Part shown: piece by piece, positions 16,759-23,063 of the stretch
Layout: the number at the start of each line of letters is the position of its first letter
Position numbering within the stretch: position 1 is the stretch's first letter
Assembly: GCF_014642915.1 (NCBI RefSeq)
Contig: NZ_BMJE01000007.1
Span: 1-64,000, forward strand
DNA from: Flavobacterium suaedae
GTDB taxonomy: Bacteria; Bacteroidota; Bacteroidia; Flavobacteriales; Flavobacteriaceae
Reading direction: 5' to 3'
Length of the DNA: 64,000 nt
Translations under genes and position numbers: made by a program
The notes under the pieces: model-generated
Told to the model about the DNA's origin: nothing
Database searches by the model: none
What the model saw: only the letters and a program-made list of their open reading frames with translations

Positions 16759-17715
16759 TTACTTCACCCAAAGGCTATCGGTAAAATAGTGTTTGCAGTC
16801 CATAAAGTTATGCACTACACTAAAGCCTGCTTCTTCGGCTACATTATTTATTTCGTTTAAGCTGTATTTTTTAGAAAGCTCTGTCCAAATCAGTTCATCT
16901 TTCTCAAAGTGGAAGGTAGTATTAAGCACCGTACTATGGAAGTGTTGTTTTTTAAGGCTCACTAAGTAGCTGTTTACCTCTCCGTTTTCGGGGTTGTAGT
17001 TGCTGTAAAAATCAAACTGGTCTAACGCAATATCAGCATCCAGCTCATTATTTATTCTTTTCAGCAAGTTTATATTAAACGCTTTGGTGATACCATGAGG
17101 GTCATCATAAGCAGTTTGTATAACACGCGGATTTTTCCTTAAATCCATACCCATAAGCAGCATATCGCCCTTATTCATACCCTTGTGGAACTTTTTAAGC
17201 AGGTCTAAAGCCTCTTCAGGTTTATAGTTACCAATGTTACCCCCTAAAAACAGAAATAGCTTAGGTGTATCACTTTTAGCAAGTTCATCCAGTATTTCAA
17301 AATAATCACCTGTTTTGGGTGTCATTTTTATATTGGGTAGTGTAGCGGTTATATTTTCCTGTAAAGCATCAAGTGCTTCCTGAGAAATATCAATAGGCAC
17401 ATAGGTAAAATCTGCCTGATTTCTTAAAAAAGTAGTTAGCAGTTGCTTGGTTTTCACACCATCGCCACTACCAAACTCTACAATATCAAACCTTTCTTCA
17501 AAGCATAATTTTTTCAGTATGTCCTGAGATTGTTGCGATAGTATTTCAAATTCACACCCTGTTGGGTAGTATTCCGGCATTTTCATTATTTGCATAAAAA
17601 TGCGACTGCCGTTATCATCATAAAAATATTTAGAGGATAAATGTTTTTTCTCTCCCGAAAGCCCTTCCACTACATCGTGTGCAAAGGCGGTATTAGGTGC
17701 AGTTGTAGTACTCAT
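16759..17715 (-). CDS. egtD: L-histidine N(alpha)-methyltransferase EgtD
   Basis: A 318-residue SAM-dependent methyltransferase that trimethylates the amino group of histidine to hercynine, the first step of ergothioneine synthesis. Family motifs are present: KYFYDDNGSRIFMQI and PEYYPTGCEFEIL near the N-terminus, the SAM-binding VEFGSGDGVKT (about residue 80), VPIDIS, and FLGGNIGNYKPEEA. The C-terminal part carries the histidine-pocket region (DQFDFYSNYNPENGEVNSYL). The length is typical. It begins 12 bases after egtB ends, so the two form one operon. The usual actinobacterial genes egtA, egtC and egtE are not nearby. Confidence 0.93.
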   Translation of the reverse strand: MSTTTAPNTAFAHDVVEGLSGEKKHLSSKYFYDDNGSRIFMQIMKMPEYYPTGCEFEILSQQSQDILKKLCFEERFDIVEFGSGDGVKTKQLLTTFLRNQADFTYVPIDISQEALDALQENITATLPNIKMTPKTGDYFEILDELAKSDTPKLFLFLGGNIGNYKPEEALDLLKKFHKGMNKGDMLLMGMDLRKNPRVIQTAYDDPHGITKAFNINLLKRINNELDADIALDQFDFYSNYNPENGEVNSYLVSLKKQHFHSTVLNTTFHFEKDELIWTELSKKYSLNEINNVAEEAGFSVVHNFMDCKHYFTDSLWVK

Positions 17716-17727
17716 AATTTTTTAGTT

Positions 17728-18876
17728 TTATTTTACAAGACGGATGCCGTTAAACTGCCACCGCTCATCAGGATGGAAAAAATTACGGTACGTGGCGCGC
17801 CCGTGTTTTGGGCTTGTTGCACACGACTTTCCGCGTAATACCATCTGGTTAATCATAAATTTTCCGTTGTATTCTCCCACTGCACCCTCAGGTTTTGTAA
17901 ACCCTGGGTAGGGTAGGTAGGCACTGTTTGTCCACTCCCAGCGTTGCCCCCAGTTTAATTTTTGTGCAACAGCTTCCCACTCAAACTCGGTGGGCAGGCG
18001 CATGCCTTTCCATTCTGCAAATGCGGCAGCTTCATAAAAATTAATATGGGTTAGTATGGCATCAGGGTTAATTTCCTGCAAACCGGAGAGTGTAAAATGC
18101 ATCCACTTTCCGTTTATTCTGTGCCAGTATAGCGGAGCTTTAACTTGGTTTTCGGTTACCCACACCCAGCCTTCGTCAAGCCAGTAGTTAAAATCTTCGT
18201 AACCGTTACTTTCCATAAACTCCATGTACTCGGCATTAGTAACTAAGGTATTGGCTATTTCGTAATTGTGCAGGTACACTTTGTGCCTGCCATGTTCATT
18301 GTCGTAAGAAAAACCTTCGTCGTTAAAACCAATTTCATATACCCCTTCATTTATTGGAGTAAAACCTGCTTCGGTTTTGTTTTCCTGGTTTTCCCATTCA
18401 ATGTCTTCGTTATATACAGGGAAGGTAGGGTTACAGCCCAGTATATATTTTATATCGGTAAGTAATAGTTCCTGATGTTGTTGTTCGTGGTTAATGCCCA
18501 GTTCTGCCAGCTCATGTATTTCATCATCTTTTAGCTGTAGTGCCAGTTCCATGTGCATGTCTACATAACGGCGGTATTCGTATACCTGTTGCACGGTAGG
18601 GCGGGTAATAGCACCTCTTTCTGCCCTAAAAGTTCTGTCGCCTACATTGTTGTAATAGCTGTTAAACAGAAAGCAGAAATCTTCGTCAAAAACTTTATAG
18701 TCAGGTAAATGCTTGGTTAAAATAAACTGCTCAAAAAACCATGTAGTGTGTGCTAAGTGCCACTTGGGTGGGCTTACAAATGCTACAGGTTGCGGAACGT
18801 AATCTTCGGTTTGTAGCAGGCTGCATAGTTCTTCGGAGTATTGTCTGGTAGTATGATAGTGTTCTAAGAGGTTCAT
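17728..18876 (-). CDS. egtB: Ergothioneine sulfoxide synthase EgtB
   Basis: A 382-residue non-haem iron enzyme that joins hercynine to a thiol donor with oxygen, giving the sulfoxide precursor of ergothioneine. The N-terminal DinB-like bundle supplies the iron triad: the His of WHLAHTTWFFEQ and the two His of HEQQHQELLLTDIKY. The C-terminal FGE-sulfatase-like domain has ITNAEY-like NTLVTNAEYMEFM, RLPTEFEWE, and the end motif HPDERWQFNGIRLVK. There is no C-terminal methyltransferase domain, which separates it from OvoA. It is the first gene of the egtB-egtD operon. Without egtA or egtC in sight, the thiol donor may be cysteine itself rather than gamma-glutamylcysteine; this is an inference from context. 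Confidence 0.93.
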   Translation of the reverse strand: MNLLEHYHTTRQYSEELCSLLQTEDYVPQPVAFVSPPKWHLAHTTWFFEQFILTKHLPDYKVFDEDFCFLFNSYYNNVGDRTFRAERGAITRPTVQQVYEYRRYVDMHMELALQLKDDEIHELAELGINHEQQHQELLLTDIKYILGCNPTFPVYNEDIEWENQENKTEAGFTPINEGVYEIGFNDEGFSYDNEHGRHKVYLHNYEIANTLVTNAEYMEFMESNGYEDFNYWLDEGWVWVTENQVKAPLYWHRINGKWMHFTLSGLQEINPDAILTHINFYEAAAFAEWKGMRLPTEFEWEAVAQKLNWGQRWEWTNSAYLPYPGFTKPEGAVGEYNGKFMINQMVLRGKSCATSPKHGRATYRNFFHPDERWQFNGIRLVK

Positions 18877-19072: not shown

Positions 19073-19103
19073 TTTGGTTTATTAAGAATTTACTTTACAT
19101 TTG
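19073..19103 (+). promoter_or_regulatory. Strong promoter ahead of the leader/RNA-repair locus
   Basis: TTTG at 19073-19076, 19 bases, then TACATTTG at 19096-19103: a full match to both Bacteroidetes sigma-A elements at ideal spacing. Transcription should start near 19110. It is one of the two best promoters in the window. No protein gene of normal size begins until 19612. The stretch between egtB (ending 18876) and this promoter is AT-rich, and I see nothing else in it. Confidence 0.8.
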
Positions 19104-19142
19104 CAGCGCAATTATAGCAATAACAAGAAAAATTAAGTAAAA

Positions 19143-19238
19143 ATGCGTTTTATAAAATCTACATATCAGCTACACGATGCAGGAGAAAATATCCTTGCAT
19201 TGGCGCCGGGTTTTATAGCGCAGTTTAGTTTTAAATAG
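19143..19238 (+). CDS. Possible 31-residue leader peptide
   Basis: A short frame starting with ATG about 33 bases after the predicted transcription start and ending with TAG, 24 bases before a strong terminator. The peptide begins MRFIKSTYQLHDAGEN and ends GFIAQFSFK. It has no recognisable domain, signal peptide or run of one amino acid that would mark a classical attenuator. It may be a translated leader, a small protein, or simply part of a small RNA. The placement directly after the best promoter in the region is the main support. Confidence 0.35.
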   Translation: MRFIKSTYQLHDAGENILALAPGFIAQFSFK

Positions 19239-19261
19239 ATAATTTATAACTTAAAATATAT

Positions 19262-19294
19262 AAGCCCGGAACCTAAAAGCTCCGGGCTTTTTTT
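19262..19294 (+). terminator. First of two related terminators upstream of the pcfJ-like gene
   Basis: AAGCCCGGA pairs with TCCGGGCTT around a 10-base loop and is followed by an unbroken T-run. The stem and tail (CCGGGCTTTTTTTATGC) recur in the second terminator at 19431-19464. Confidence 0.9.
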
Positions 19295-19464
19295 ATGCCA
19301 TGATTTTAAACAGAGCACAACATACAGTAGTTAACAACATAGGGTGCAACTTACCATTTGGTGAGATGGACATGCTATGCCCTGAACCGGATATTTCCTC
19401 TTGAAAGGAAGGAAATGACTTTGCAAACGCAAGCCCGGTTCTGTTACAGAGCCGGGCTTTTTTT
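19295..19464 (+). ncRNA. Candidate structured small RNA or leader between two terminators
   Basis: This 170-base stretch lies between two similar intrinsic terminators and folds into several local hairpins by eye. These are CTTACC/GGTGAG with loop ATTT (near 19350-19365), TTTCC/GGAAA (near 19394-19415), TTGC/GCAA (near 19421-19432) and the closing terminator. It also holds a 34-codon frame at 19300-19404 with no recognisable product. No separate promoter is visible, so it is probably reached by read-through of the first terminator or made by processing. It matches no RNA family I can name with confidence. Its position directly before a PcfJ-like and RtcB gene set makes an RNA substrate or regulator possible; that is inference. 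Confidence 0.4.
19431..19464 (+). terminator. Second related terminator upstream of the pcfJ-like gene
   Basis: A 13-bp stem: AAGCCCGG then TCTG, pairing with CAGA then CCGGGCTT across one T-G pair, loop TTA, followed by seven T. It shares stem and tail sequence with the terminator at 19262-19294. Confidence 0.9.
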
Positions 19465-19611
19465 ATGCTGTACAGTAAATAAAAACAAGTAACAGATTAA
19501 TAAATATTGAATGAAGAAAATGAACTTAGGCTTCACCTAGAACTTAGAATAAACCTTAGAATGTAAAAGAGGAAAAGAAAGGGAAAGTGCTGCCGCAAAA
19601 CAAGCACAATT

Positions 19612-21021
19612 ATGGAAACACTAGCACAAACACTGGCTTTACCAACAGCCAAGCAAACAAAATTTGCCGATATGGTAGAAAGGGCTTCTACAAAAGCCCC
19701 CGGATTAACAGGTTACAAGGGTACATACGAAAGTGTTATAGAAGCACAGTTTACCCGAATAAGTGCAAGCAATTATACTAAAAGGGAAACCTTAAAGCGG
19801 TTGTTACTTCACTTATATAACCAAACTTGTTACACCATAATAAAAACACCTGATTATTTAGATGTATTGGCTAACATGAGTGCTTTTGGAGGCAAAATGG
19901 TTAGGGATATAGAAAGCTGGGAGAAAAAAGGCTTTGTTGCCGAAGACCAGTTAACATCGCTAATACAGCATTGCTTTGCAAAGTACCCTGTACCACAGTT
20001 TCTTGAACCTGCCTTTGCAGGCGATAAATTACTGTATATGGTTTGGTACGTACAGCTTGGTGCCGGTAAAAGTGTTATGGAGCTTAGTAGTTTTCCTGTA
20101 GTGTTTACCAAAAAAATGGCACACTACTTTAGGCTTACCCCTCCCGAATATAAAGTGGAACAAGCCATAAGGAGGGCTCAGGCATTGGGTTATGGTGCAA
20201 CTATAGAAAATGCCGAAGCCATAGCGTGGTCAGTACTTTCAGCAGGTTTTGAAGATGAAGCGTTTTGGGATAAGGTTATAAAGTTCGTAGCTAAGGTTAA
20301 ACAGTCAGTACCGCTTGATGAGCTTCAGATAGTATTGTACTTCTTAAAGCAATTAAAGGAAAATCAGCCTGATTTAACCATGAAAGGCAGAACCTGGGAT
20401 GCTTTATTAAGGCAGGCACAGGAATGGAATATTGAAATGAACCGACGGAGTCATTTTGAAAATTATTTGGAATGGAAACCGGCTGATATAGGCAATTTCA
20501 CTATAAAAATAAACAATGTAACCTATGCTATAGTACAGCTTGTAAACTCCGAAGAGCTATATGTAGAAGGTTATGAAATGAGCCACTGTGTAGCTGACTA
20601 TGACCAAGACTGTGCAACCGGAGAGATTGCAATATTCTCTTTAAGGAAATATGCTGAAAAAAAAGCAATGGAAAGAATAGCCACAATTGAGGTTGACATT
20701 ATAGCTAAAGAAGTTACACAGGCTAAGGGTAAGTATAATGAATATACAACCGATGAAGCTGACAAGTTGATAAAAGAGTGGGCAGACAGAGAAGGTTTGA
20801 CTATAGAATACAGTCCTGAATATTATAATGAAGCCCCTCTGCCTCAGCAGGCGCAACATCAGGGAATAGCACAAGCAAACCCTCGCCCGGTTGATTTAGA
20901 TAATTACAGATATGTGCCTCCAAGATACAGGCAGGATACTAAAATTACAGAAAATGAGCTTATGTTAATACTAAGACTCTCATTACTTATACTGTTTGCT
21001 TTGGTACGAGCATGTCACTAA
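19612..21021 (+). CDS. PcfJ-like protein
   Basis: A 469-residue protein. The C-terminal half (about 300-410) matches the PcfJ-like pattern: EMSHCVADYDQDCATGEIAI with the conserved HCV, then IATIEVDI and the Gln-x-Lys-Gly-x-x-Asn segment TQAKGKYNEY. The N-terminal half is helical and includes FTKKMAHYF. PcfJ was first noted on conjugative plasmids; the biochemical role of the family is not established. The last 20 residues are unusually hydrophobic (MLILRLSLLILFALVRACH) and could act as a membrane tail. It is the first gene of a same-strand set with rtcB (56 bases downstream) and a TPR gene, which suggests work on RNA. A well-formed stem-loop lies between it and rtcB. Confidence 0.8.
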   Translation: METLAQTLALPTAKQTKFADMVERASTKAPGLTGYKGTYESVIEAQFTRISASNYTKRETLKRLLLHLYNQTCYTIIKTPDYLDVLANMSAFGGKMVRDIESWEKKGFVAEDQLTSLIQHCFAKYPVPQFLEPAFAGDKLLYMVWYVQLGAGKSVMELSSFPVVFTKKMAHYFRLTPPEYKVEQAIRRAQALGYGATIENAEAIAWSVLSAGFEDEAFWDKVIKFVAKVKQSVPLDELQIVLYFLKQLKENQPDLTMKGRTWDALLRQAQEWNIEMNRRSHFENYLEWKPADIGNFTIKINNVTYAIVQLVNSEELYVEGYEMSHCVADYDQDCATGEIAIFSLRKYAEKKAMERIATIEVDIIAKEVTQAKGKYNEYTTDEADKLIKEWADREGLTIEYSPEYYNEAPLPQQAQHQGIAQANPRPVDLDNYRYVPPRYRQDTKITENELMLILRLSLLILFALVRACH

Positions 21022-21077: not shown

Positions 21078-22475
21078 ATGGCAAAATTAAAATTACGAGG
21101 CAAAGACCTCATAGCAATAGGATTTCCGCAAAACAAAGCAATAAGCATAGCTATGGAAAGCATGCAAAAACACTACAAGCGGGAAACTAAAGAAAGGGTA
21201 CTGGTACTTTTAAAAGAAGTACTTAAAGACCCTGAACAATTTTTAAACGATGGGATATTCGGTAAAATAGCCGAAGCCTTATTGAGCGATACAAAAACAG
21301 AAAAGCAGAAGCTGAAAACCAATCGTGCGCCGTATACCATTTTTGGTGAAAACGATATTAAAGACGAAGCCAAAAACCAGTTATACACAGCCCTAAAGCT
21401 GCCTATTGCAAAAGCAGGCGCGCTTATGCCGGACGGGCATTCGGGTTACGGTTTACCCATAGGTGGGGTACTGGCTACCGAAAATGCTGTAATTCCGTAT
21501 GGGGTTGGGGTAGATATTGGTTGCCGAATGTGTTTAAGCGTGTATGATATACCGCCATCGTACCTATTGGGTAGTAAGGACAAGTATGTAAACATACTGC
21601 AAAAACACACCAAATTTGGTATGAAAGAGGTACACAGTAACCCTGCCGACCACGAAGTTTTAGAACGGGAAGAATTTAAAACCATTCCGTTTGTAAAAAA
21701 ACTAAAGGACAAAGCCTATGCACAATTAGGTAGTTCGGGTGGGGGTAACCACTTTGTAGAATTTGGTATTGTAGATGTCCCAGCTAACGATGCAGTATTT
21801 AACATACCTCCCGGTAAGTATATAGGCGTGCTATCGCACAGTGGTTCTCGCGGATTGGGTGCGAATATTGCCAAACAATATACCTATTTGGCAATGAAGC
21901 AAACCCCGTTACCCAAAGAGGCAAAGCACTTAGCATGGTTAGACCTCAACACACACGATGGGCAGGAATATTGGTTAGCCATGAATCTTGCGGGCGATTA
22001 TGCTTCGGCATGCCACCACGATATTCATAAAAGGATAGCAAAGGCATTAGGTGCAAAACCGCTTACAGTAGTAGAGAACCACCACAACTTTGCATGGAAG
22101 GAAATAGTAGATGGCAAGGAGTTAATAGTACACCGCAAAGGAGCAACCCCCGCGCAGGAAAATGTGTTGGGTATTATTCCCGGCAGTATGACGGCTCCCG
22201 GATTTATTGTAAAAGGCAAGGGCAGTGAGTTATCGTTGAGTTCTGCGTCGCATGGTGCAGGCAGGCTGTTTTCACGCTCAAAGGCTAAGCAGTCGTTTAC
22301 ACGAAACGAGCTTAATAAAATGTTGACAGATAACGGTGTTACGCTTTTAGGTGCAGGTATAGATGAGGCACCTATGGCATATAAAGACATTAATAAAGTT
22401 ATGGCACAACAAACAGAGCTTGTAGATGTAGTGGGGACTTTTACCCCGAAAATAGTAAGAATGGACAGAGCATAA
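21078..22475 (+). CDS. rtcB: RNA-splicing ligase RtcB
   Basis: A 465-residue GTP-dependent RNA ligase that joins 2',3'-cyclic-phosphate or 3'-phosphate ends to 5'-OH ends, as in tRNA or rRNA repair. Active-site elements are intact: MPDGHSGYGLPIGG, the Mn-binding Cys149 in GVDIGCRMC, SSGGGNHFVEFG, LSHSGSRGLG, and the GMP-accepting His392 in SSASHGAGRLFSR. The start is ATG 21078; the upstream in-frame TTG would add only KTNK-type residues and lacks support. It lies between a PcfJ-like gene and a TPR gene. There is no archease, RtcA, RtcR or Ro (Rsr) gene in the window, unlike the best-known RtcB operons. Confidence 0.96.
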   Translation: MAKLKLRGKDLIAIGFPQNKAISIAMESMQKHYKRETKERVLVLLKEVLKDPEQFLNDGIFGKIAEALLSDTKTEKQKLKTNRAPYTIFGENDIKDEAKNQLYTALKLPIAKAGALMPDGHSGYGLPIGGVLATENAVIPYGVGVDIGCRMCLSVYDIPPSYLLGSKDKYVNILQKHTKFGMKEVHSNPADHEVLEREEFKTIPFVKKLKDKAYAQLGSSGGGNHFVEFGIVDVPANDAVFNIPPGKYIGVLSHSGSRGLGANIAKQYTYLAMKQTPLPKEAKHLAWLDLNTHDGQEYWLAMNLAGDYASACHHDIHKRIAKALGAKPLTVVENHHNFAWKEIVDGKELIVHRKGATPAQENVLGIIPGSMTAPGFIVKGKGSELSLSSASHGAGRLFSRSKAKQSFTRNELNKMLTDNGVTLLGAGIDEAPMAYKDINKVMAQQTELVDVVGTFTPKIVRMDRA

Positions 22476-22502: not shown

Positions 22503-23063
22503 ATGGGAATTGATACCTATGAAGTAATGTACATTCAGGCGAGGGATAATTACCCATACGATATACATGAATGTATAGAGAAACTACAATATGTTATTGC
22601 TGCCGATGATGAGCATGCGGGAGCCCATTGCCTGTTAGGGCAAATATATGATGAGCAGTTGGAAGACTATAAGCAGGCAGAGTACCATTACAGAATGACA
22701 CTTTACCTCAACAGGGAGTATACCCCTGTTTACTACCAGTATATTTGGCTGTTAATACGCCATAACCGTTTGGAAGAAGCACTAAAAATAATAGATATAG
22801 GGCTTACGGTACAAGGTATAGAGGAAGCAACCATGATGTACTTTAAAGGTGTTTTATACGAAAAGTATGAAATGTATAACACTGCTATAGAGTATTTTAA
22901 TGAAGCTAAAAAGAAATGCTTTAATAATGGTTTTATGAATGAAATGGATGACCATATAAAAAGGGTTAAGGATAAAAAAGCCCTGATTAAAAAGTTATCT
23001 AAAAAAGGAGATTCAAAATCGAAACGTAAAAAAAGTAAAAACAAGAAAAAGAAAGCTTCATAA
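22503..23063 (+). CDS. TPR-repeat protein with lysine-rich tail
   Basis: A 186-residue protein with about three tetratricopeptide repeats (roughly residues 10-140, e.g. AHCLLGQIYDEQLEDYKQAE and YNTAIEYFNEAKKK). It ends in a very basic Lys/Ser tail (KSKRKKSKNKKKKAS) that could bind nucleic acid or ribosomes. It follows rtcB by 27 bases and ends at a strong terminator, so it is the last gene of the pcfJ-like/rtcB set. TPRs mediate protein contacts; together with the basic tail this would suit an adaptor for the ligase, which is inference. No known named family was recognised. Confidence 0.8.
   Translation: MGIDTYEVMYIQARDNYPYDIHECIEKLQYVIAADDEHAGAHCLLGQIYDEQLEDYKQAEYHYRMTLYLNREYTPVYYQYIWLLIRHNRLEEALKIIDIGLTVQGIEEATMMYFKGVLYEKYEMYNTAIEYFNEAKKKCFNNGFMNEMDDHIKRVKDKKALIKKLSKKGDSKSKRKKSKNKKKKAS

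Follow-up and report, generated by a model that had tools for sequence, protein, structure and literature searches.

Transcription attenuators of the trp, his and thr type are built from a short leader ORF, mutually exclusive 1:2, 2:3 and 3:4 pairings, and a terminator placed before structural genes of amino-acid synthesis. Leader-peptide attenuation has also been inferred for amino-acid biosynthesis operons from the 5′ regions of Flavobacterium psychrophilum, in a paper whose main text holds no occurrence of rtcB (PMC9723704). For RNA repair, a different type of control is described: the RNA ligase gene of the RtcR-controlled rtcBA operon is induced by RNA damage, and RtcR binds the ends of cleaved tRNAs through its CARF domain (PMC7790460). 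Among the matches listed in open-access literature searches there was no leader controlling rtcB or pcfJ, no pair of leader-peptide attenuators in series, and no account of how bacteria lacking RtcR switch on RNA repair.

Here we analyse a stretch of 64,000 nucleotides from Flavobacterium suaedae (the window), in which a pcfJ-like gene and rtcB follow two short structured units. RtcR (PF06956) had no match in this genome, with E. coli positive as the control. Our main reading, to which we give a probability of about 0.83, is that the region at 19.07-19.61 kb acts as a double ribosome-mediated transcription attenuator before the pcfJ-rtcB operon. Comparison among relatives shows that each unit consists of a leader ORF and an intrinsic terminator, and that a strand in the 3′ part of the ORF is predicted to form a duplex with the terminator's 5′ arm. 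Several features that define such attenuators were found: a leader ORF with a fixed stop position, a terminator before the gene, an exclusive antiterminator pairing and, in unit 1, a region 1.

Layout of the locus

The preliminary description of this DNA had pointed to a promoter, a 31-codon frame and two related terminators, all of which we recovered in the sequence (Table 1). The promoter fits the TAnnTTTG consensus given for the flavobacterial -7 box in PMC9723704, and 33 of the 44 retained upstream stretches, window counted, carry such a box followed by a short ATG frame. The terminator stems are AAGCCCGGAACCTAAAAGCTCCGGGCTT with a T run (19262-19289) and AAGCCCGGTTCTGTTACAGAGCCGGGCTT with a T run (19431-19459). 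A promoter and terminator scan, of a sigma-70 type ill-suited to the phylum of the window, listed terminator 2 on the + strand and the hairpin of terminator 1 on the - strand only, with 4 sites against 1.9 (sd 1.5) expected. Both units are predicted to fold stably: unit 1 reaches -43.7 kcal/mol (z -2.8; 1/200 shuffles equally stable) and unit 2 reaches -50.8 kcal/mol (z -3.9; 0/200). The second structured unit reported earlier is thus structured, as claimed, but it is not an RNA unit without an ORF, since it holds leader ORF2. The motif ACATA(C/T) occurs at 19161-19166 and 19320-19325, around nt 18-27 in each of the two leader ORFs, in differing frames; counted frame-free, it is present in 28/42 ORF1 and 16/29 ORF2.

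Table 1 Features of the leader region and operon in the window
Feature	Position	Strand	Basis
Promoter: TTTG (19073-19076), 19-base spacer, TACATTTG (19096-19103)	19073..19103	+	Sequence inspection; start predicted near 19110
Region 1, ORF1 start region, predicted to pair with region 2	19138..19161	+	Permutation test of 1:2
Leader ORF1, 31 codons, MRFIKSTYQLHDAGENILALAPGFIAQFSFK and stop	19143..19238	+	ORF assigned in 42/42 analysed leaders
Region 2, putative antiterminator strand, 3′ part of ORF1	19201..19218	+	Permutation test, covariation
Terminator 1 with U tract; 5′ arm is region 3	19260..19296	+	Sequence, terminator scan, leader survey
Leader ORF2, 34 codons, MILNRAQHTVVNNIGCNLPFGEMDMLCPEPDISS and stop	19300..19404	+	ORF in 29 loci
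Region 2′ (GAACCGG), putative antiterminator strand at ORF2 end	19384..19390	+	Duplex permutation, alignment count
Hairpin across ORF2 stop with SD-like stretch GAAAGGAAGG (19403-19412)	19391..19416	+	Folding, 16S-tail pairing
Terminator 2 with U tract; 5′ arm is region 3′	19426..19467	+	Sequence, terminator scan, duplex test
Mini-ORF3, MKKMNLGFT and stop	19511..19540	+	Motif in 18/42 loci
pcfJ-like gene	19612..21021	+	PF14284, E 3e-15
rtcB, RNA ligase	21078..22475	+	PF01139, E 3e-79; start MAKLKLRGKD predicted from homologue L049
TPR-repeat protein gene, possible third operon gene	22503..23063	+	Weak TPR matches

Between terminator 2 and pcfJ, the last codons of mini-ORF3 are predicted to pair weakly with 19579-19589 (-7.9 kcal/mol in the window). 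Among the 18 of 42 loci that carry the motif, the native pairing averages -9.16 against -7.92 kcal/mol (sd 0.37) after permutation, with 2/5000 permutations as good, and possibly represents a translational hairpin. The mini-ORF before pcfJ mostly ends in GFT or GIT and a stop, and its last codons can pair with a downstream GUG..GCC or GUAAAG.

For PcfJ itself, a sequence search up to E 1 gave no relative of solved structure, and Foldseek returned no match at E <= 0.001 for either the whole protein or its C-terminal domain. This domain was modelled with a pLDDT of 94.6, and the VIA alignments shown have acetyltransferases as partners (highest Z 7.6; for the two best, an rmsd of 3.3-3.8 over 101-107 residues); we take the resemblance to a GNAT-like fold as a lead. 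The domain is encoded at 20467-20829, and in it a His-Cys and a Cys are invariant.

Several neighbouring genes are also worth recording. A further RtcB gene, diverged from the first and coding for 462 aa (L076, contig C2 of G000, 126713-127477), is present in the genome, and the gene beside it on the other strand presumably encodes a WYL-type regulator. A divergent gene pair with PF03781 and PF10017 occupies 16759-18876 of the window (- strand), which we take to be EgtB/EgtD-like; an EgtB-like gene also adjoins the leader in L003 and L006. In L010/L020, pcfJ-like genes stand in tandem, each with a AACCGGTGGTA..GGCCGG stretch 5′ of its start.

Conservation and predicted pairing of the leader units

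Searched by blastn in 120 genomes, unit 2 matched its own genome and three others of the same genus, in each case before a pcfJ-like gene, as well as G095, where the match was confined to 39 bases of the query at the terminator. Matches to the PcfJ protein, own genome counted each time, came from 18/398 genomes of the genus (one, G489, weak), 12/299 of the family (four weak) and 4/395 of the order, and 36 pcfJ loci were obtained by scanning the contigs of named genomes. With 24 search loci and the window these made 61 upstream stretches, of which 44 were retained after removal of 17 duplicates. Five weak pcfJ matches (L016-L019, L037) and a second pcfJ copy (L020) were left out of the leader set; L070, whose upstream stretch is another pcfJ copy, was dropped, and L051 was added by hand for codon counts only.

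The preliminary description had named conservation in relatives as a check on the leader, and the outcome is favourable: a leader was found in 43 of the 44 stretches upstream of close pcfJ genes, L070 being the exception, and its native pairings exceed permuted ones. The 42 distinct pcfJ leaders (window included) all keep ORF1, terminator 1 and the antiterminator strand, and 29 carry ORF2. They come from Flavobacterium, Aquimarina, Kordia, Winogradskyella, Leptobacterium, Aureisphaera, Sediminicola and relatives.

ORF1, with a length of 17-31 codons, lies 5′ of terminator 1 in 42/42 leaders, and its stop is placed 13-27 nt 5′ of the terminator stem in 41/42; in L036 the ORF is truncated and region 2 falls 3′ of the stop. 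Across leaders the segment paired with the terminator 5′ arm begins at ORF nt 46-63, which would leave room for a stalled ribosome. ORF1 and terminator 1 were picked without using the pairing (automatically in 34/42 loci, by hand in 8/42), and the 2:3 duplex nonetheless has a native mean of -17.0 kcal/mol over 42 loci, compared with -12.25 (sd 0.47) for swapped arms, and 0/5000 permutations reached the native mean. The two strands also vary together: CCGGGUU is found with AAGCCCGG, GCUUCGUGAC with GUCCGAAGC, UUUUGGGUU with GACCCGAAA, and GACUUGGGUUUU with AAAACCCGAGUC.

The competing 1:2 pairing behaves in the same manner in pcfJ leaders, with a native mean of -11.97 against -8.20 (sd 0.38) permuted (0/5000). 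When region 1 was allowed to lie 5′ of the AUG and three rtcB-only loci were included, the 45 loci gave -12.99 vs -9.32, again with 0/5000. In one clade region 1 is located just 5′ of the AUG (ACGAAG with CUUCG), and three Aquimarina loci (L049, L055, L060) have a weak 1:2 pairing of -4.1 to -5.6.

In unit 2, ORF2 (16-35 codons) stands between terminators 1 and 2 in 29 loci, of which 28 had the second terminator found automatically and one, L065, by hand; its stop lies 18-34 nt 5′ of terminator 2 in 28/28. The last ORF2 codons (GAACCGGAUAUUCC in Flavobacterium) form the predicted antiterminator strand of terminator 2. Over 28 loci the best upstream duplex for 2′:3′ is -14.2 vs -12.6 kcal/mol (sd 0.42) permuted (0/5000), and it uses a segment other than GAACCG in 5/28 (L021, L022, L024, L042, L067). 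Its partners change together, as GAACCG:CGGUUC, GGACCG:CGGUCC, AGAAACGG:CCGAUUCU and GUAUCGGUGGU:ACCCGAUGCU, and GAACCGG:CCGGTTC is paired in 86.7% of alignment cells. A region-1 competitor for region 2 was established for unit 1 only.

Covariation was scored on alignments, that of unit 1 comprising 23 sequences. The 2:3 score is 0.256 vs 0.165 shuffled, and the scores for 2:3, 1:2 and 2′:3′ are above those of every slide. Cells changed on both sides exceed those in shuffles for all three pairings (2:3, 11 vs 4.9; 1:2, 14 vs 6.7; 2′:3′, 11 vs 2.3). Counted by pair, changes on both sides are not clearly above shuffles (3 vs 2.6, 4 vs 4.1 and 3 vs 1.5 for 2:3, 1:2 and 2′:3′), and neither are further pair types (8 vs 7.7, 11 vs 13.8 and 6 vs 5.4). 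Because the loci are related, some changes are inherited in common, and the number of loci overstates the number of independent changes.

The stretch after the ORF2 stop resembles a strong SD. Against an assumed 16S tail it pairs at <= -15.6 kcal/mol in 14/29 loci and at -11.8 in the window, and twelve other loci are weaker than -6 kcal/mol. A role as a ribosome dock is possible. As a constant feature, the start of a further ORF was rejected: several loci (L025, L036, L056) have no ATG or GTG at the position expected behind it. The 9-mer GAAAGGAGG is not rare in the genome (9 copies; 12 for the reversed control), and the window's own copy is broken by an A.

A related leader was also found beyond pcfJ. 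A covariance model of unit 1, run on 199 Flavobacterium genomes, gave 11 strong matches (53-146 bits), all in pcfJ genomes; G489, with its weak pcfJ match, had no strong one. Ninety further genomes had matches between E 5e-4 and 0.05. Eight of these weaker matches were inspected: five (L113, L116, L121, L124, L125) precede rtcB in genomes outside the pcfJ-positive set, and no rtcB was seen behind L109, L110 and L111. An rtcB protein fragment matched 84/199 genomes, from which 30 loci were taken; with 92-100% identity between their fragments and the query, these loci amount to few independent events.

A strict promoter box was required at first and gave leaders in 3/30 loci; with the box dropped and the ORF-terminator pair selected by best pairing energy, 29/30 carry a leader and a terminator, with the consensus MFV.TS.SQSFTPN.FGAA.LRGLFQS and a stop. 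Most of these leaders can form the pairing CUUCGUGGCUU:AAGCCCGAAG. Their pairing energies are not independent evidence, because the pairs were chosen by energy; the near-identical peptide is. All 29 ORFs have exactly 27 codons, and the distance from the leader to rtcB downstream is 139-150 nt in 14 loci and 847-862 nt in the other 15. In this set (L128-L157, single conserved leader ORF and attenuator; an example from outside it is L124, 1506-1650) and among the inspected matches, L130 and L121 have a gene (MENYTVDEYxLCTRF...) without Pfam match between leader and rtcB.

In the 36 named pcfJ loci, rtcB follows pcfJ in 25, L062 has another RtcB type, and ten have none at that place, three of them on short contigs. 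Ten genomes were checked, and no RtcB match was obtained in G511, G463 and G477, which carry pcfJ and the leader. A leader specific to RtcB was therefore rejected, some genomes having leader and pcfJ without an rtcB match and others a related leader and rtcB without pcfJ. The existence of both kinds of locus assigns the putative attenuator to pcfJ and rtcB as a group.

Whether the leader ORFs are translated was approached from their frames and substitutions. The ORF assignment itself required an open frame, and the shifted frames served as control: of 42 leaders, just 2 stay open across the ORF1 span in the +1 frame and 2 in the +2 frame, and the ORF2 span is open in frame in 29/29 and in +1 and +2 in 3 and 6. 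This comparison, together with where the stops fall and how long the ORFs are, forms the evidence for translation. Substitutions at the three codon positions number 46, 68 and 78 in ORF1 and 60, 57 and 59 in ORF2 (one ORF2 pair with a wrong L068 frame), and frame-breaking versus in-frame indels 6 vs 1 and 11 vs 5. In the 29 rtcB-only ORFs, each of the three codon positions accounts for 11 variable columns; of the extra states, 14 are synonymous and 32 non-synonymous. The codon-position signal is weak or absent, which would fit selection on pairing and on the act of translation, and would equally fit untranslated ORFs.

Under the attenuator reading, the switch would work as follows. When no ribosome is present, regions 1 and 2 would pair, terminator 1 would form and the operon would be off. 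A ribosome that reaches the stop would cover region 2, and the terminator would again form. A ribosome that is held up within the first 12-14 codons would cover region 1 and free region 2, the 2:3 pairing could then arise, and the polymerase would read through. Unit 2 would repeat the switch for polymerases that pass unit 1, making a series (AND) gate on slow translation, and short terminated leader transcripts would be expected as by-products. The purpose we infer is that cleaved tRNA or rRNA slows elongation and thereby turns on the operon, including the sealing ligase RtcB, in a genome without RtcR.

Two other explanations of the region had to be weighed. The terminators could be constitutive, insulating or lowering a weak operon, with pairings that are due to chance or inherited. 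Terminators alone would indeed attenuate, and the weak codon-position signals agree with this; however, 2:3, 1:2 and 2′:3′ match better within than between loci in several genera, and we regard constitutive terminators as very unlikely. The preliminary description had left two alternatives, controlled read-through at two terminators or abundant small RNAs resembling Y RNAs. The first gains support from the conserved antiterminator strand within each leader ORF. The second, in which two terminated units would act as small RNAs beside RtcB, can account for the promoter, the terminators and the structured units, yet the Rfam search proposed in that description gave no family at gathering score in the window or in six leader loci, and TROVE/Ro (PF05731) had no match in the genome (99.7% complete; Deinobacterium chartae positive as control). 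A permissive Rfam list held 32 matches, the best being MicC, whose 29.4 bits fall short of its gathering score of 90, and these look like terminator noise. The ORFs span the conserved strands, moreover, it is hard to see what conserved alternative pairings would do in a stable small RNA, and unit 2 finds an explanation as an attenuator. As the main explanation, small RNAs were rejected and appear highly improbable.

Signals that could hold the ribosome

Two special cases of the attenuator explanation differ in what would stall the ribosome. The tRNAs for Tyr, His and Asn, with GUN anticodons, are members of the queuosine family. The leaders could detect the loss or damage of these three tRNAs, a stall at codons 7-9 opening both terminators. 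The tRNAs that colicin E5 prefers to cleave are those for Tyr, His, Asn and Asp, and the cut ends carry 2′,3′-cyclic phosphate and 5′-OH (PMC9223846). In line with such a sensor, Tyr, His or Asn stands at ORF1 codons 7-8 in 42/43 loci (dinucleotide-shuffle expectation 28%) and in 20/21 peptide clusters, and the triad ranks first of 1140 amino-acid triads; at ORF2 codons 7-9 the count is 29/30 (expectation 44%; triad rank 12), with L051 added by hand and another start used for ORF2 of L036. Both the windows and the triad, however, were chosen after looking. The ACATA(C/T) motif is a confounder, [ACT]AY appearing in the shifted frames in 31 and 10 of 43 (ORF1) and in 20 and 24 of 30 (ORF2). Asp is not enriched, and E. 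coli gained no protection against colicin E5 from RtcB2-PrfH (PMC9223846). Codons 7-9 hold Tyr, His or Asn in 0/29 rtcB-only leaders, and these codons as a general rtcB rule were rejected. We regard a sensor of specific codons as rather unlikely.

Alternatively, any slow-down of elongation, whether by antibiotics, ribotoxins or low charged tRNA, would open the attenuators, with codon identity of minor importance. General stall sensing is known for antibiotic-response leaders. A uORF motif is read as being of the antibiotic-response type in PMC8632094. The rtcB-only leaders, in which the same switch is retained although the early codons differ (SQSFTPN), speak for such a sensor, whereas the near-constant Tyr/His/Asn codon of pcfJ leaders is left unexplained by it. 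We place general stall sensing at roughly even odds, and at present it is more likely than the codon sensor.

A more speculative and rather improbable extension is that the double leader is a coincidence detector of RNA damage. It would open only on stalls at both Tyr/His/Asn sites, when tRNAs with GUN anticodons are destroyed by anticodon nucleases, and the anti-SD dock that follows the ORF2 stop in many Flavobacterium could report exposed 16S tails. If this were true, the cell would read the integrity of both tRNA and ribosome through translation, without a damage-sensing protein, and release pcfJ together with an RNA ligase that reseals the cuts.

Comparison with known systems

Y RNA-Ro-Rtc loci share with this one a structured RNA near rtcB, and differ from the window's genome, which has no Ro/TROVE match and whose leader has no Rfam match at gathering score. 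A second point of comparison is the bS21/anti-SD autoregulation of rpsU in F. johnsoniae. Genomes of Flavobacteriales typically have one SD of exceptional strength, at rpsU, and ribosomes without bS21 are reported to favour it (PMC9976891). The strong SD-like stretch in 14/29 leaders is similar; unlike the rpsU SD, it sits after the ORF2 stop within a hairpin, in some loci with no start codon behind it.

Induction of the RNA ligase gene by RNA damage, as in the rtcBA operon (PMC7790460), is assumed for the present locus. The rtcBA system has the sensor protein RtcR, whereas here, with no RtcR match, control would lie in the leader. A leader-peptide attenuator would thus offer an RtcR-free answer to the control of RNA repair, in which damage to tRNA or ribosomes is read as slow translation. 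It would cover two flavobacterial arrangements, pcfJ-rtcB and rtcB alone, and would link the PcfJ family to translation stress.

The closest relatives of the device are the leader-peptide attenuators themselves. The leaders of F. psychrophilum (PMC9723704) belong to the same bacterial family, promoter type and mechanism class, and there precede amino-acid operons. With trp, his and thr attenuators the locus shares the short leader ORF, the exclusive pairings and the terminator before the structural genes, and it differs in controlling pcfJ and an RNA ligase, in showing two leader-peptide units in series, and in having no run of a single amino acid. By the features testable here, the device would be a member of this class, and a slow or stuck ribosome probably switches on pcfJ and rtcB genes in flavobacteria.
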